From the NCBI GenBank assembly GCA_001275005.1, contig JWZX01003158.1:1-61938 (forward strand): a stretch of DNA of 61,938 bases, in the 5' to 3' direction. This stretch comes from Chrysochromulina tobinii. Lineage: Eukaryota; Haptophyta; Prymnesiales; Chrysochromulinaceae. Positions 20,103 through 47,289 of this stretch are shown here, piece by piece. How positions within the stretch are numbered: position 1 is the first letter of the stretch; every line of letters begins with the position of its first letter. A model generated the notes under the pieces. It did no database searches, was not told the origin of the DNA, and was given only the letters and a program-made list of their open reading frames with translations. Both the position numbers and the translations under genes were made by a program.

Positions 20103-20963
20103 GCTGACATGAGCCTCAAGATGAGCTACTCTCGGTCCCTCACTGCTCACACCTACTACAGTGGCCGAGCCGCGCTGGGGGTACCGAGTGTAAGGTGTCG
20201 CTGAGACTTGCAGAACCGGCTCCGACGTGCTGACTGTGTGACTCGGTGACCCCACAACTCCCCACCGTCTGAGCTCTAATGACCATTAGGGTTTGTGGGG
20301 TCCCATGATTTCGCAGGTGGGTGTGTGAAATCACAGGAACCTATGAATTCACGCCTACCCGCGATTTCACAGGGGAGTGCGATTTCACACTAAGGCCTGT
20401 GATTTCACAGGAGGGTGTGATTTCACGCCCGGGGGTGTGATTTCGCAGGGGGCTGTGATTTCACGCCCAGGGGTGTGATTTCGCGGGGGGCTGTGATTTC
20501 ACGCCCGGGGGTGTGATTTCGCAGGGGGCTGTGATTTCGCGTCCGGGGGCGTGATTTCACAGGGGGCCGTGATTTCACCCCCGGGGGTGTGATTTCATGG
20601 CTTCTCGAAATCACACCCCCCCCTGTGATTTCACACACTTCTGTGATTTCACACCCCAACCTACGAAAACGCACCCTACTGACGAATCGCATGGACCTCT
20701 GTCCGGCGGGGGTTTAAGTTAAAGTTATCTACTGGAGCGCCTTTTGCACCATGGAAGAAAATGGACATGTAGACTAGGGAGGGATTATATCACACATACC
20801 TTGATTTCAAACTGAGTGGTAGCCGATCAATTGATCATCAGTACCGTACGACACGTAACTCAATCGCGCCAAGCATATCGCCGCAACAACAACTGGGCTG
20901 CACCTCGAAATGAACGTCTTTACCAGTCTCACAGACCCACCTCCGAGGACGCGGAGGTGAATC
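20103..20963. other. Intergenic region without recognised gene
   Basis: A convergent interval dominated by the minisatellite at 20305-20670. The remaining parts (20103-20300 and 20690-20926) show no protein-like frame or RNA gene that I can recognise. Confidence 0.7.
20305..20670. repeat. TGTGATTTCRC minisatellite, 19-20 bp monomers in ~38-bp dimers
   Basis: About 17 degenerate monomers of the form tgtgatttcacgcccgggg or tgtgatttcgcagggggc are arranged in tandem. In the centre they alternate, giving a dimer of about 38 bp. A run near 20600 switches to the reverse complement (gaaatcacacccccc), so the array has internal inverted symmetry. Confidence 0.9.
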
Positions 20964-29649: not shown

Positions 29650-30123
29650 TTACTGCATGTGGATGCGCAGCACGCAGCCTGGTGCGGAGAGCGTGTGGGT
29701 GCCGGGGGCGGAGAGCTGAAGACGCTGGCCCTGATGCTCCACGACGGCCGTGCGGAGAGGCGCTTGCGCTCCGCGGCTGCAGGGCTGACACGGGTTGACA
29801 CGTGTGCCCCAGGTTGACACGCCTCGCAATGCCCGCGCCGCACTGGGGTGGAAGGCAATGTCGACCTTGCCTGCAGCCAGCGTGATCACCCGAGCATCGA
29901 GCGGTCCGACGGCGCCCCCTCGTATGTACTCCGAGGTCGCTATCTCCGAGGTCGCCTGAATCCCAATGCTCCTTGTGCTGCGTCTCGGCACGGGCGCCTG
30001 CGCAGTGTCTGATGACGAGGTGCCACGAGGTGTGGGCGCGAGATCGCTCAAATGCGCACCTTCCTGGTGGCCGCCGTCATCGTCGCTGCTGCTGCTGCGG
30101 TCGCCGCCGGCACCGGCGTCACG

Positions 30124-30154
<31 letters not shown>

Positions 30155-30253
30155 CTCCGGCTGCGAGCAACAGCCAAATCGTTCGTCAAACCGACGGCTG
30201 CGCCCTCATGGGCTGTAACCGTCGTCTCTTCTTCCTCGGCTTCCGGGGTCCTG

Positions 30254-30288
<35 letters not shown>

Positions 30289-32648
30289 ACGGCGCAAGCC
30301 GATGGCCGAGGCAGCCGAGGACGACGTTGCGCAGGGCATCGCGTCAGAGGGAGTGGGTACAGTCGGAGCGCCGGCGGAGGTCACGGGCTGGTTCGCGGAC
30401 GTCGTCGGCGCGCGAATGGTGAGGAGCTCCGTCCATGGCCTTCGTTTTCGAAGCTCGGCGGTCGCGGAGTGTGCACGGCCCGTTCGTTGGCGGCCGGCCT
30501 GTTCGAATGCATCGCTCTCTCGACTTGCCAAATTAGGAAGTTCCGCTCCCGAGGCACTGTGCCTTAGCGCGTCGGCGCCCCCTCCCAACTGCTGCATCGC
30601 CGCCGCAAGGACGGCGAGCTGCGCGTCGTCCATCGGGCGAGCATGCAGCGCCGCTGCAAGGGCATCCTCAAGTGCCGCAGCCCCCGCATCGAGCGCCGCC
30701 TGATGTTCAAGCTTGAGGCGCGTCACCTGTGGGGAGAGGGGCGGGGCGCTGTGGTGAGCCCTTGCATGCGCGGCTCCCGCATCGAGCGCCGCCTGATGTT
30801 CGAGCTTGAGGCGCGTCACCTCCGCCAATCAGAGGCAATCAGAGGCAATCAGAGGCAATCAACGAGACTCACCTCCGCCTCGTGGCGCTCCTTGAGCTCC
30901 TTGAGCTCCTGCTGACGTTCCCATTCGAGCTGTGCTCGTATCTCAGCCTCGGCGCTCGCTTGCGTGTGGGAGCGCTTCATCAATCGCACCGCCTCCGCCT
31001 CGATCTCTGCGTGGTCGAGCATCGCAGCCGCGCGGGCGGCGGCCACCTCCTCGTGGCGCTGGAGCATTGATTCGCCCTCGACCCGCGCGCGGTCGAGGGC
31101 CTCCTCCACCAGGTTGTGCCGCAGCTCCTCGAGCGTGCTTGCATGCGCAGCCGCATGCCGCATGGTCGACTCCTCAGCCATCCCTGATTTGGTCATCCCA
31201 GCGAGCGTGCTTCCTAATTTGGCACGCGCAGCCCCAGTTTGGGTGACCATGCTTCGCGGAATGACGAGGCCGCTCGCCGCCGCGACGGCGCCCAGTAGCG
31301 TTGGGGTTGACGAACCTCCGAGCCACTGCCGAGCAGAGGACGGCTGCGCTCCGGCCGAAAACCCTGTGGCGGTCGCCGTGTTGGGCGCCGTGATGGGCGC
31401 TTCCTCCCTCGCCTTCGCCCTTGCGAGGGCGTCGAATCCCGTCGGTCTCTGATTGGCATGTGATTGCCTCTGATCGCCTCTGATTGCAACGGCGTCGAAT
31501 CCCGTCGGCCTCGCAGGCTGGCTACTAGTTTGGATAGCGGCTCTCAGGCCAGAGGGGCCTCCAGCGGCCGCCGCGGGCACAGCGCTGAGCACAGCGCCCA
31601 TAGGTGCGGGTGCTGGTGCGCGCTCGTTCAATGGCGGCCGCCCTGGCAGAGCTTCAGCAGCCATCGAACGTGCGTCCTCGGCGGGCATCGTGCGCAGCAC
31701 GATGAGGCTGAGGGCGGCCGACTCGCTGCTGCCACGTGAGTCGAGAGGACGGCGGGCCTCCCCTAGAACGTACTTGGCCAGCGCCGGGGAGAGCAGCTTG
31801 CCCGTTACTCCAATGATCGCATCACCCACACGGAGCTGGTGCTCGGGCGGGCTCGGCGCGCCCGCGGCTTCGCCGCCGCCGATTCGGAAGCGAGAGGGCG
31901 ACCCGAGCGGCGCACCGGACCGAAAGGCACTCGTGTTGCGCATTGCATCTTCCCAAGGGAGAGTGGAGCCGTTGCTTGGGATGTCCGCCGCCTCTGAGTA
32001 GACGACGAGCAAGTCGCCCGCGAGGGGCATGCGCCGCTTCTCGAGGCACGAGGCGACCGACTCGTGCGAGTCCCGCCGAATCTGCAGGCCCTCGACAAGC
32101 GCCTCGGCCAGCCCGATTTCGACGCCGGCCAGGCTCGCCGAGGGTAGCGTGATGACTCTCGTGAAGGGCGTGTCGGCGTGCCCAAAGCCGCGAGCAGCCG
32201 ATCCGGCGAGCTCGTTGGCGAGCAGCATGTGGACCGCCTTCCACGCTGCAAGGCCACCGTCTTCGCGCTCGAGTGAGCCTCGCCCGAGCAGGGCTGGGAG
32301 TAAGAGGCTGATCATCAGGGCGCTCCGAGGAGCGTCGCTAGCCGAAGGCGCGACGAGGGTGAAGAAGCTCTCGAGAAGGTGCGCCTTGAGCGGCGTGACG
32401 GAGCGCATCACACCGGAGACGCGCGTCTGTGCGGAGGTCAGACCATCAGATGGCGTGACTGCAATCAGCGACGCGGATGCCGCCTTGTCGAGCACAGGAT
32501 CCGTTTCGCAGTCCTGCAGGGTACTCAGGAGGGATGCCGCCGCCTGCGTACGGCCGAGCAGATTTACATGCAGCCCGCTGCTGATGTGCTCATCAACCGC
32601 GGCCGCGAGCAGTGTGGATGAGCTGGACGAGCGTACAAAATCGGGCAT
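29650..32648 (-). CDS. Large coiled-coil/low-complexity protein with a PDZ-like patch
   Basis: Exon 1 (30873-32648, ATG at 32648) and exon 2 (29650-30819) join in phase 0 to give about 981 residues. The first 350 are globular; LRVGDAIIGVTGKLLSPAL with ALSLIVLRTM looks like the end of a PDZ-type domain. The middle is a Pro/Ala linker, followed by a helix (HNLVEEALDRARVEGESMLQ and on) and a Ser-rich, RS-like region with two poly-Ser runs encoded by CTG repeats on the plus strand. The VTRLKLEHQAALDAG segment occurs twice in exon 2, suggesting either a local duplication or a second short intron ending at CCCCACAG (about 30729). The function is unknown. It is head-to-head with GPAT. Confidence 0.65.
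30820..30872 (-). mobile_element. Introner-like intron with 11-bp flanking duplication
   Basis: A 53-nt intron: GTGAGTCTCGTTGATTGCC followed by three more TGATTGCCTC-type units, ending GGCGGAG. The 11-mer tcacctccgcc (plus strand) flanks it at 30816-30826 and 30869-30879, so the intron equals a 42-bp insertion plus one copy of a target-site-like duplication. Splicing joins HEAE to VTRLKLE in frame. Confidence 0.8.
31428..31508 (+). mobile_element. Antisense TGATTGCC element flanked by 18-bp direct repeats
   Basis: A 45-bp core (31446-31490) with tgattggc, tgattgcctc, tgatcgcctc and tgattgc lies between two copies of ggcgtcgaatcccgtcgg. Relative to the host gene it is reversed, has no GTGAGT start and is read through in frame (63-bp period), adding VAIRGDQRQSHANQ to the protein. 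Confidence 0.75.
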
Positions 32649-32848
32649 GAAGATCGCTGCCTCGCCGCAGCCTCTCTCAAAAGACCGTCCATCCGCCCTT
32701 TTCACATTCACAGTTCAAAGCTACAAAAGCTACAAAAGCTACAAAAGCAAACAAAAGTACCCACGCACGCAAGCCAACAGTCAGCATACAGCTCACATTC
32801 CAAAAATGGGACAGAGAGGGTCTGTATTCCTGTGAGTTCTGTATTGGA
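32649..32848. promoter_or_regulatory. Divergent interval, coiled-coil gene / GPAT
   Basis: 200 bp between opposite starts, containing a 9-bp microsatellite (gctacaaaa, three copies plus a variant, 32720-32750). Confidence 0.5.
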
Positions 32849-35119: not shown

Positions 35120-35826
35120 CTACCGTGGGTGAGCTGGCACACCGAGCATTTGCCGAGATCCTGAAGCGTCCTCGAACGCGCTCGAATTCCTTGGACCCAT
35201 CCGGACTTGAACGCGGGTGTGTAATCCGCGAAAGAGAAGGAGGCTCACCAAGTTGGGTTGACGTCGTCGTCGTGAAGGCCGTACACGTCGCGTACGGTAT
35301 CGCATGGGGATAGTTGTCTACAGCGCGTATCTGATGTGTCTATTTCACTGAGTTCAAAATCAGGTGGTGAGGATAGTGTGTGAATCCAGAAAGAATACCC
35401 TCCCCTACCCCTTTGGGTCAACCACTGAGTTCAAAATCAGGTGGTGGGGATAGTGTGTGAATCCAGAAAGAATACCCTCCCCTAGCCCTTTGGGTCAACC
35501 ACTGAGTTCAAGATCAGGTGGTGGGGATAGTGTGTGAATCCAGAAAGAATACCCTCCCCTACCCCTTTGGGTCAAGTTTTAACATTCATAACTGAAGAAG
35601 GAATTGAGAAACCAAACGAGACCGCGAGGGGCTCGACGGCAGGGTTCGGGAGGGGGCACTGGAGTGTGCGTGGGGGTGCGTTTTGTGAGCCTGCCAAGCG
35701 GGAGGGCGCGAGGATTCAATGGCGTGACGAATGGTAGACCGAACTGAAGTGTGAAGACATGTCCTCCGTGTGACTGTGAAGAGCATGGTGAACCTCTTTA
35801 AGTCTTTATTTTCCGAATGATCCATC
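35120..35826. other. Intergenic region with tandem array
   Basis: No gene is seen. It is dominated by the 77-bp triplicate at 35346-35576, followed by A/T-richer sequence up to the end of the next minus-strand gene. Confidence 0.7.
35346..35576. repeat. 77-bp tandem repeat, three near-identical copies
   Basis: Copies start at 35346, 35423 and 35500 with only about four differences among them, which implies recent expansion. Each contains cactgagttcaaaatcagg and tgtgtgaatccagaaagaat. There are no spacers, so it is not CRISPR-like. Confidence 0.95.
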
Positions 35827-44501: not shown

Positions 44502-47095
44502 CCGCTGCCGCCGCCGCTAAACGCCGCTAACTTACACCGCCTCGCGCCGCAATTCACCGGGTCGCGCGCCGTATCGAGCGTATGCATGCCGCCGCCATTC
44601 GCCTGGGTGAGTGACCGGAGTGCTGATGGGCGGGATGCCAGCTCGGTGGCGGCGGCGGCGGCGGCGGCGAGTGCGACCGGATAGCCCACCGGATAGCCGT
44701 TGCGCCGCGCATCCGCCTCGTCACTCCCACGGGTGATCGAGGCGACCCCGTCTTTCCTGGTCACGTTGCTGCGGCGTGGCACAGGCGCATGCATCGGCGG
44801 CACAGGCGCATGCATCGTGGCGTGCGGCGCGCCGAGCGCCGGAGCGGTCACAATCGGCGCCAGCTCCTGGAAGGGCATCGAGATCCGCCGAAGCACCGCA
44901 CGACTGCCTGCCCGCGTCTTGAAGGTGAGCGAGAGCAGACCTGCTTTGCTCGAGCTCCTCTCGACCTTGTGCCGAGCACGCCCTTCAGCGGCAGCGGCGG
45001 CGGCGTCGCCGCCGCTGACATCGCCTGTGCTCGGGTCGTTCTCCGCGCCGTCATCAGCTTCGTCAAACTGCGTGGGTGAGGGGAGTTCAGCACGTAAGAA
45101 CTCGTGCCACTGCTCCACATCCACGCCTTCCTTGTTGGCCTCGTCGTAGAGCTCATCGATGAAGACGTTCTCGATCTCGTACCCGCGCGAGGCGAGAGCG
45201 AGCTTACGCGCCATGGCGAGCTCGTGGAATCGTACGTACCGCTTGGCCGCTTCAGAGAATCGTCCGCGGCCCAGGCCCGCACCGCCGCCGCCGCTGCCGC
45301 TAACGCCGCCGCCTCCTCCACCTCCGCCGCCGCCTCCGCGCAGCACCTGGTTCCGCTGAGTGATGCGAGCTAACAGGCCGGCACCGTCGTCGGTGCTGCT
45401 AAAGCCGCCGTCGTCGCCGCCGCCGCCGTCGTCGCCGCCGCCGCTGCCAAAACTCATCTGGATCGTACGAGAGAGCTCCTCCTGCTCCTCCGACGCTGCG
45501 CGTAGCTGCTCCACGCGAGCATGAGGCAATCAGTGGCAATCAATTGCAATCAGAGGCAATCAACGACACTCACCTGCTCCGCGCGAGTCGCGAGCATGAG
45601 GCAGTCAGTGGCAATCAGTGGCAATAACGACACTCACCTGCTCCGCGCGAGTCGCGAGCATGAGGCGTTGCCACACGGTGGTGACCCGGAGCGTGCGGTT
45701 GCGGTTGCGCAGCGTCGTGTTCTCGGCTTCGAGCTCGGCGATGCGCTGAGCCATCGGCCCACCGCCGAGTGCGCTCACCACTTGCTGTATGTGGCTCGGG
45801 TGGTCCAGACCCTGGCCATCCCGCGCATGTACCTCCTTCCTGAGCCGATCGATCAGCAGCCGCGCCGCGCTCGCCTCCTCGCGAGCGAACGCGAGCTCGC
45901 TCTCGAGGTGCGAGGCGTCCAGTCGACCGAGGAAGGAATGAGGGCGCACCACCACGCTCACCGCCTTGGCCCGCACGGCAAACCGGAGCGTGCCGATCGT
46001 CTCGTCGAGGTTGGCACTCTCCGTGCGCAGCGTGACCACGACGGCGCTCGCCGTATTGCCGCCGAGCGACTCCTGCAGCAGGCGGGTGAGTTTGCTGTCG
46101 CGGTAGGGCACGTGCGCGGCGCCCTGGGCCATGCAGCGCACGCGACGTGGCCGCCAGCCGCTCGATGACGGTGCCGAGGGCGAAGAGGGACGTGTTGATG
46201 TTCCGCGCCTCTTCACGCCGCTGCGGCGCCGACGAAGGGCCTCTGACCGACTCGACATAGTACGACTTCTTGGAACTCTCCATCCCTGCGAGGTCGACCA
46301 ACGAGAGCTTGCCACTTTCCGCGCCGCCACTGTCCTGGCCACTGCTCACGTCGTGCAGCTCGAGCACAAAGAGTGCGTGCGAGCGCGACGAGCGAGCATT
46401 CATCTTCATCGCGGCGACCACACGCAGCTCGTTGCCAACGCCGCAGGCAGTCCATGACCTCCGTCTCGGAGGTGACGACCTCGCGAACGAGGCCTTCCAC
46501 CACGACACGCCGCTGTGCTGTCTCGCGCAGCACGAGGCCCTTGCGCCCACCCAATAGATCGTTGCACTGGTCATTGTACACCTCGACGTACGAGGCCATG
46601 ACGACGAACTGGGACGCCTTCGGCGCGCTGCGCAGCGAGGCGAAGATGTCGGCGATCGCACGCGGTGCGAGCCCGTGCAGCGTTACGTCCGACCCGCTCC
46701 AGTCGCGTATGACCTCCTCTGGACCGAACATCGTGTACGTCTTGCCGCTGCCTGCCGGAACGAGAGAGGCCGCAGAGCAGTGGCGCGTGTGTGGGGTCAC
46801 CGAGACAGAGGCGAGAGGCGGTCGCACGTAGCGTACCTGTCTGCCCGTATGCGATGATGCACAGATTGTAGCCATGCATAACGCGCGCGACGCGCTCGCG
46901 GCCCAAGATCTCATAGACTTCCTCTTGTGCTGCATCCGCATCCCACACCCAGTCCAGAGAGAACTCGAGGTTGCGCACCTGCACAGTCCGCTGCTGATCG
47001 AAGCGCTTCTTGACGATGATTGAGTCGTCGCGAGGCGCGGATGAGTCGAGGTCGGGGCGCAGCCGCGCGTACACGCCCACTGCTTCTTGGGCCAT
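43931..47095 (-). CDS. Orphan kinesin with coiled-coil/low-complexity tail, two +1 frame breaks
   Basis: Exon 1 (46837-47095) starts MAQEAVGVYARLRP; a phase-1 85-nt intron (46752-46836) splits the P-loop, restoring AYGQTGSGKTYTMFG. Exon 2 carries VMASYVEVYNDQ, switch I NARSSRSHALFVLEL, switch II SLVDLAGMESSKKSYYVES, then YRDSKLTRLLQESLGGN. Two +1 shifts are needed: near 46440 (after EVMDCL) and near 46120-46160 (between TVIERLAA and AAHVPYRDS). The neck and coil follow (LESELAFAREEASAARLL). Exon 3 (43931-45505) encodes a Gly-rich linker (poly-Gly at 44440-44515) and Ala-rich helices. The LAGMESSKKSY variant suggests a protist-specific class. It is a microtubule motor if intact. It is head-to-head with ClpP. 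Confidence 0.8.
44440..44515 (-). repeat. Trinucleotide tract encoding poly-Gly
   Basis: A nearly pure (ccg)n run on the plus strand encodes about 20 Gly residues in the kinesin tail. It is preceded by a 27-bp duplicate encoding GAPASTAAG. Confidence 0.9.
45506..45637 (-). mobile_element. Tandem pair of introner-like introns in the kinesin gene
   Basis: Two adjacent elements, each starting GTGAGTGTCGTT and made of TGATTGCC-type units, lie between three copies of a target-like sequence: 45506-45526 (7 nt shorter), 45574-45601 and 45638-45665. Donors are at 45637 and 45573; the acceptor GGAGCAG ends at 45506. Between the elements the sequence reads GAGCAG then GTGAGT, an acceptor abutting a donor with no exon between. 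Removal of all 132 nt joins RAEQ to LRAASEEQ in phase 0. Confidence 0.78.
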
Positions 47096-47289
47096 GCTCG
47101 GGCGTGGAGGGAGGGGTCCAGCGCAGGCCCGCCAAAGGGACTATGTCCCCATTGGTCAAGCTCGACTTTTGTCGTGAAAGCGTCGAAATGTGCACAACAT
47201 GTAAAGACCTCTTTCTACATGTAGACTGAAGTGACTTGTCTCCCTCGCAAGTTCGGAAAATCCTGAACCTCAGGCACGAGCATCGTCGA
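47096..47289. promoter_or_regulatory. Divergent interval, kinesin / ClpP
   Basis: About 194 bp between opposite starts; an in-frame GTG/ATG-free stretch precedes the ClpP ATG. It includes the inverted acatgtaaag and ctacatgtaga motifs at 47199-47226. Confidence 0.45.

Follow-up and report, generated by a model that had tools for sequence, protein, structure and literature searches.

Intron-like insertions with splice-signal cassettes and variable exon duplications in Chrysochromulina tobinii

An array of decamers on the minus strand of contig JWZX01003158.1 of the haptophyte Chrysochromulina tobinii (61,938 nt, hereafter the window) proved to be one copy of a large family of intron-like insertions. 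In our reading, to which we give a probability of roughly 70%, such an intron would arise when a short cassette of splice signals is inserted into an exon, the exon sequence at the insertion point being duplicated. A previous reading of the DNA without database searches (the sequence-only reading) had described the array as a recently gained, introner-like intron of 53 nt, bounded by an 11-bp exon duplication. The locus is a composite of two putative insertions at one exon junction, predicted to be spliced. One would be an insertion of a cassette, X, with a 51-bp duplication that now shows three differences; the other would be an insertion of a head plus decamers, with an exact 7-bp duplication. 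We infer from sequence both the splicing at this locus and the process that mobilises the cassettes.

The composite locus in the window

The 53 nt read GTGAGTCTCGTTGATTGCCTCTGATTGCCTCTGATTGCCTCTGATTGGCGGAG on the minus strand from 30872 to 30820, exactly as first given, and the direct repeat of 11 bp (TCACCTCCGCC on the plus strand, at 30816-30826 and 30869-30879) is also exact. The decamers were recovered by Tandem Repeats Finder (TRF) as a period-10 array at 30826-30861, with 3.6 copies and a 100% match. However, four of the 11 repeated bases, GTGA, are the element's own donor, as in other copies of the head. The family head starts with these four bases, which would match the GTGA of the exon in any case, and only GGCGGAG need be a duplication of exon sequence. 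The real exon duplication at the decamer cassette may therefore be only 7 bp.

The upstream minus-strand frame (30852-32714, 621 codons) meets a TGA inside the array, so the stretch around 30820 cannot be read through in frame. The downstream frame occupies 29653-30828, and a Pfam scan of these two frames returned no family. Directly after the 53 nt lies a 51-bp exon piece that reads GTGACGCGCCTCAAGCT...GCG (also given as GTGACGCGCC...GCG) and occurs twice, and its second copy comes after CATGCAAGGGCTCACCACAGCGCCCCGCCCCTCTCCCCACAG (CATGCAAGGGCTCACC...CCCCACAG). Three of the 51 positions differ between the copies. All three are synonymous changes at third codon positions, a point for the inner copy once having been coding.

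Three excisions would keep the frame. Removal of the 53 nt alone would add 31 residues, VTRLKLEHQAALDAGAAHARAHHSAPPLSPQ. Removal of 146 nt joins ...RHEAE/VTRLKLEHQ... in frame, and removal of 53 nt and then 93 nt, with zero exon between them, gives an identical mRNA. The acceptor of the 53-nt form has no pyrimidine tract beside its AG. Because the longer form has the better acceptor, and because its 3' part belongs to a second family of intron cassettes, the intron is probably the 146-nt one. The duplicated exon can supply splice signals, as the sequence-only reading held, but splicing probably does not use the 53-nt boundary.

An order of events with X first was hinted at by three differences in 51 bp against none in 7-11 bp. 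We give this hint little weight, since a repeat of only 7 bp would in many cases stay exact at about 6% divergence. The description of the locus as an introner-like gain agrees with the family structure reported below, but its recency here is suggested only weakly, by the exact 7-11 bp repeat.

The division of labour between cassette and exon would be as follows. The decamer cassette would bring GTGAGTSTCG as its 5' splice site, together with a run of TGATTGCCTC-like units. Each unit offers a branch-point-like CTGAT, a candidate branch point by its fit to yTnAy, and after it a pyrimidine-rich stretch. The acceptor AG would come from the duplicated end of the upstream exon. Cassette X would act as the mirror image, with GT supplied by the duplicated downstream exon and the branch point, pyrimidine tract and AG by X itself; its CTCAC is presumably the branch-point-like element. 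Both events would have taken place at the same exon junction, and selection would keep the insertions that splice.

Copy number and flanking duplications of the two cassettes

We searched an assembly of 53,154,812 bases in 2,253 contigs, of which the window is one, and paired each genome-wide pattern count with a reversed-pattern control. The head in its window form, GTGAGTSTCGTTGATTGCC, occurs at 5 exact places (0 reversed) and, with up to two mismatches, at 129 (3 reversed). A commoner form, GTGAGTSTCGTYAATTGCC, occurs at 105 places within one mismatch, against 1 reversed. At the same tolerance the decamer pair CTGATTGCCNCTGATTGCC was found at 2,614 places and the array-plus-acceptor tail TGATTGCCTCCCTCATCAG at 2,286, both with 0 controls; these are counts of places and not of introns, as a single array can hold several pairs. 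The first 100 of the 105 heads lie at 72 loci on 59 contigs, and 17 of the loci are tandem clusters with a spacing often of 63-95 bp. The proposed family thus exists at copy numbers far above the reversed controls. Similar predicted introns occupy unrelated sites, as seen for the heads and for arrays in BEACH, carboxypeptidase, MYST-type and kinesin-like genes.

Compound structures were common in the sampled loci. One locus (L050) holds four back-to-back units, each composed of head, decamers and the exon end ...CTCGGGCTGCGGCAG, and the BEACH-domain gene (L001) is laid out as exon, array, exon copy, array, exon copy, array, exon. Units of exon piece plus array recur in tandem, with arrays that differ in unit and number. 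The compound intron of the kinesin-like gene in the window consists of back-to-back cassettes at 45574-45637 (64 nt) and 45506-45573 (68 nt), joined CAG/GTGAGT with no exon between. Both had been said to share the 19-nt head; the inner one (45573) matches at all but the variable position, but the outer one (45637) lacks one G. Junctions of this type (window 45573/45574; L050 4300-4750) amount to zero-length exons and resemble recursive-splicing sites.

Flanking duplications were scored in 225 arrays of at least two units, from 20 main loci (L036-L055), the window and L001-L003. Flanks of 70 nt were examined, and arrays lying closer than 70 nt to a locus end were left out. The 20 main loci were picked from the first decamer-pair places, so that densities in them are not genome averages. 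A direct repeat scoring 12 or more flanks 95 of the 225 arrays and none of 628 shuffled flank pairs; with a score of 11 or more the figures are 102 and 2. The 95 arrays fall into 53 independent groups with duplications of 12-54 bp (median 26), the lower limit being set by the threshold and repeats beyond the 70-nt flanks being missed or cut.

This spread rules out one fixed target-site length for the measured duplications. The sequence-only reading, which invoked target-site duplications, is not borne out on this point, as the measured lengths run from 7 bp at 30820 to 54 bp. In 23 of the 53 groups the end of the left copy coincides with the start of a unit. Of the 53 duplicated pieces, 17 contain the AGGT motif, as do 102 of 1060 background windows; it is enriched and not universal. 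In 25 of the 53 groups the AG of the right copy faces the GT of the left copy at equal offset, by an uncontrolled measure. The two copies are identical in 63 of the 95 repeats, which suggests that many duplications are young.

The X cassette behaved in a related way. Its core, TTGCATGCAAGNGCTCACC, occurs within one mismatch at 814 places genome-wide (0 controls). Local copies commonly run TGCATGCAAGTGCTCACCACGGCGC, pyrimidines, CCCCACAG, and the cassette runs TGCATGCAAGTGCTCACC...CCCCACAG. A duplication of the downstream sequence, 21-46 bp long, flanks 12 of 20 local copies (one of 21 X matches was dropped), compared with 16 of 350 mismatched pairs, where a second copy of X in the flanks accounts for some of the matches. 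Some of the 12 (at L001, L045 and L054) are tandem element copies and not clearly exon. Among six X loci that were read, the clearest, in L050, has a 92-nt insert (not a multiple of 3) parting ...LLLTLGDE and VLNAARYVHRQLG...; at L047 wrong copies had been paired in the frame reading. Some decamer copies, for example in L040, use an X-like mode with their own CTCATCAG tail. Two unrelated cassettes thus appear to share the habit of long duplication, with a complementary division of labour.

Signs of splicing

The intron-like behaviour claimed for the arrays was borne out at the sequence level by heads flush with AG, by constraint on the donor and by clean removal from conserved domains. An AG directly precedes 51 of 57 exact heads, tandem copies included. 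Over the first six head positions, the first 100 of the 105 heads carry 21 changes in all, none of them at positions 3, 5 or 6. Fifteen are T to C at position 2 (12 loci on 12 contigs), and positions 1 and 4 account for three each, those at position 1 all within one tandem cluster. The position-2 variants begin GCGAGT, that is, with a GC donor (e.g., G000:C1067:25567-25756).

Excision restored conserved coding sequence at sites other than 30820, and homology supports intact coding after predicted splicing for 5 introns in 3 proteins. With its three compound array introns removed, the product of the BEACH-domain gene aligned to the BEACH domain of LRBA (1t77) without gaps at the splice points; the closest gap, of two residues, lies a few positions downstream of the first splice point. 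Neurobeachin (1mi1) was also matched, and the spliced product scored 255.6 bits against Pfam Beach. At L055, removal of a 108-nt array intron gave ...VPMLNPDGV..., ungapped there against cytosolic carboxypeptidase-like protein 5 (CCP5-like). Removal of 100 nt at L040 produced a MYST/Tudor-knot stretch with a weaker match (E 1.7e-5) and no junction gap, and excision of a 377-nt compound intron at L042 led to an LCAT-family match.

The period of 10 places a TGA in every frame of a sense array with three or more units, so that such an insert must be spliced. Read antisense, the array is open in all frames as EAIRGNQRQS. Orientation was examined by codon-usage strand calls for each flank of 105 clusters in L036-L055, the window, L001-L003 and L056-L063; the caller was correct for 74 of 79 held-out 150-nt coding pieces. 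Both flanks were called sense in 32 clusters, and one flank sense with the other uncalled in 48. Both were called antisense in only 3; of these, the L049 cluster was sense on inspection and the other two have only 2 units. Sense is therefore the prevailing orientation of the arrays. We rejected the idea that antisense arrays are common, the 13-unit antisense call in L049 being sense in a coiled-coil frame. The insertion lengths of antisense arrays in open frames were also tried as a test, and 10 of 15 at the strictest cut were multiples of 3. This was suggestive, but we do not count it as evidence: the tandem copies lack independence, long open frames arise by chance at such a G+C content, and several of the arrays are really sense.

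The window contains one four-unit array that lies antisense in the upstream open frame, at 31428-31508. Its period of 63 is a multiple of 3 and keeps the frame, and the codon-usage caller gave support for neither strand. If the frame is truly coding, this insertion would be translated instead of spliced.

Origin of the insertions

Duplications of variable length could be explained by repair of staggered breaks or by retroposition, while uniform cassettes with fixed 5' ends need a specific template. Together these features point to copying of the cassette, as DNA or RNA, into a staggered break in a repair- or retroposition-like manner, and not to cut-and-paste. Selection does not fully explain how few heads lack a preceding AG (6 of 57 exact heads), except in a very gene-dense genome or with insertion directed to AG/G sites. 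A fuller version of this scheme, which we hold tentatively and at somewhat less than even odds, has interchangeable cassettes of a donor-and-branch-point type and an acceptor type copied into exons at staggered breaks. A long, variable exon duplication would supply the missing splice site, and repeated rounds would build composites of exon fragments and decamer arrays, so that the minisatellite would be the mobile intron-making material of this genome. The odds that we attach to the competing readings are not mutually exclusive. Retroposition of the short and long interspersed element (SINE/LINE) type leaves target duplications of variable length, and some of these elements have short tandem-repeat tails. 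The variable duplications are found here as well, but no 5' truncation series or RNA promoter has been demonstrated in the C. tobinii cassettes, and no reverse transcriptase search was made.

Several observations weigh against insertion of spliced cassettes with exon duplication. The 20 main loci were chosen for containing decamers. As many as 130 of the 225 arrays have no duplication at the threshold, whether decayed, short or never there, and the 30820 locus, with its 11-bp repeat, falls outside the 95. By eye, the repeat in at least 5 of the 53 groups is cassette-like and not exon sequence. The looser list of heads (up to two mismatches from the window form) has a few members with a change at position 1, 5 or 6, and the donor is thus not strictly invariant. 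The flanks were called one each way in 4 of the 105 clusters, one antisense with the other uncalled in 3, including a 20-unit cluster in L045, and neither way in 15. One array (31449) stands antisense in an open frame. Five of the six X introns read open after splicing, yet some unspliced frame is also open in those five.

A proposal made for Daphnia invokes staggered double-strand breaks at which end joining captures intron or satellite DNA, and it needs no dedicated mobile element. The proposal shares the break with our reading and differs in the source of the filler. In the Daphnia neointrons the direct repeats measure 4-12 bp, staggered breaks recur and secondary insertions lie within young introns, and the accessible part of that paper describes no common cassette (PMC4202315). 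Such repair would account for the variable duplications, the two filler classes and the repeated insertions at one site in C. tobinii. However, random capture should give mixed filler and random ends, whereas the same few cassettes recur, the heads are flush with AG in 51 of 57 exact copies, and the left array junction falls at a unit start in 23 of 53 groups. We consider this origin rather unlikely. Spread through RNA, in which intron RNA is reverse-spliced into transcripts or DNA at AG/G sites and copied back, would agree with the strong sense bias and with heads flush with AG. Reverse splicing alone duplicates no exon, yet duplications flank 95 of the 225 arrays, and the antisense array of the window has an 18-bp duplication, although the coding strand there is uncertain. 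This route seems improbable. Least probable of all is growth of old introns into minisatellites by slippage, where the likeness would reflect selection for branch-point-like units and not mobility. Units and copy numbers do differ by locus, blocks of exon piece plus array are tandemly amplified, and tandem heads stand 63-95 bp apart in several clusters. But slippage does not explain why unrelated genes carry one and the same 19-nt head behind an AG, or why a foreign array has duplicated sequence on either side.

The insertions might also be conventional introners, that is, non-autonomous cut-and-paste DNA transposons whose short, fixed target-site duplication turns into splice sites. Multi-copy introns in unrelated genes that carry their own 5' splice site and borrow the 3' site from the insertion site are common to both, as far as the accessible part of Gozashti et al. 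(2022; PMC9860276) goes. That part reports a Chrysochromulina sp. family (family 5; their Fig. 2C) without inverted repeats, with its own 5' splice site, a co-opted 3' site and 4-bp duplications, and duplications of 3-9 bp for some earlier introner families. Short fixed duplications in the 130 sub-threshold arrays would have escaped our threshold. However, a cut-and-paste element or miniature inverted-repeat transposable element should leave a single short duplication length, whereas the 53 groups range over 12-54 bp (median 26), lengths much below 12 bp in the other 130 arrays being beyond the method; variable-length target duplications of this kind are those of a retroposon. Two unrelated cassettes both have long duplications, and no inverted-repeat ends were seen between head and tail, by eye and with no systematic test. 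We therefore regard a standard cut-and-paste origin as doubtful. The C. tobinii family is introner-like, a variant of the introner kind, and its variable duplication length and decamer-array body set it apart; the variable length argues against the standard mechanism. The same survey filtered out low-complexity families, and the decamer-array family would probably have been set aside by that filter.

Tandem duplication of exons offers another comparison. The AGGT duplication model of Rogers, summarised in the accessible part of a report on potato (PMC4974935), which also cites the case of Hellsten, has a duplicated exon piece supply both GT and AG. In C. tobinii, too, a duplicated exon piece may supply GT and AG, and AGGT is enriched in the pieces without being universal. 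The introns here do not consist of duplicated exon only, however: a foreign decamer or X cassette between the copies gives the remaining signals, and the family is genome-wide. Among titles and abstract openings of the openly licensed literature, we found no description of decamer-array introns with long (12-54 bp) exon duplications.

Intron gain is an old open question, and this genome gives very many cases, at varied stages of decay, in one assembly. The exon duplication is still readable at many loci, so that events can be reconstructed locus by locus, and the system separates the shares of inserted and duplicated sequence in each splice signal. These results suggest that an active process of intron gain may be missed by surveys that drop repeat-rich families of introns.

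Table 1. Features of the 30820 locus and of other array sites in the window
Feature	Position	Strand	Basis
Most likely complete intron (predicted), 146 nt, GTGAGT...CCCCACAG	30727-30872	-	family head as donor; CCCCGCCCCTCTCCCCACAG/GTG as acceptor
Reported 53-nt intron, alternative acceptor GGCGGAG/GTG	30820-30872	-	sequence exact; in frame
Family head GTGAGTCTCGTTGATTGCC (donor plus first decamer)	30854-30872	-	among 105 places within one mismatch of GTGAGTSTCGTYAATTGCC
Cassette 1 (46 nt), head plus TGATTGCCTC decamers	30827-30872	-	TRF period 10; exon copy GGCGGAG completes the 53 nt
Exon end GGCGGAG, original copy	30873-30879	-	sequence
Exon end GGCGGAG, duplicated copy	30820-30826	-	sequence
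Inner copy of downstream exon piece (R', 51 bp)	30769-30819	-	3 synonymous differences from exon copy
Cassette 2 (X), CATGCAAGGGCTCACC...CCCCACAG, pyrimidine tract plus AG	30727-30768	-	core within two mismatches of TTGCATGCAAGNGCTCACC
Downstream exon piece (R), original copy	30676-30726	-	sequence
Four-unit decamer array, antisense in 621-codon minus-strand open frame	31428-31508	-	18-bp exact duplication; period 63; no stop
Compound 132-nt intron, kinesin-like gene	45506-45637	-	heads; exon copies around CATGCTCGCGACTCGCGCGGAGCAG; kinesin domain upstream

Other tandem repeats in the window lie at 35346-35575 (a 77-bp unit in 3 copies, 97% match) and 20363-20597 (a 38-bp unit in 6.2 copies, 87% match), and no GATTGCC was listed between the copies. 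Near 46440 on the minus strand, the kinesin motor domain passes between frames 46216-47214 and 45618-46682 without an evident intron, possibly because of an assembly indel. The array introns are unevenly distributed, with 11 clusters within the 8 kb of L054, whose gene looks ion-channel-like by eye, compared with about three clear sites in the whole 62-kb window.

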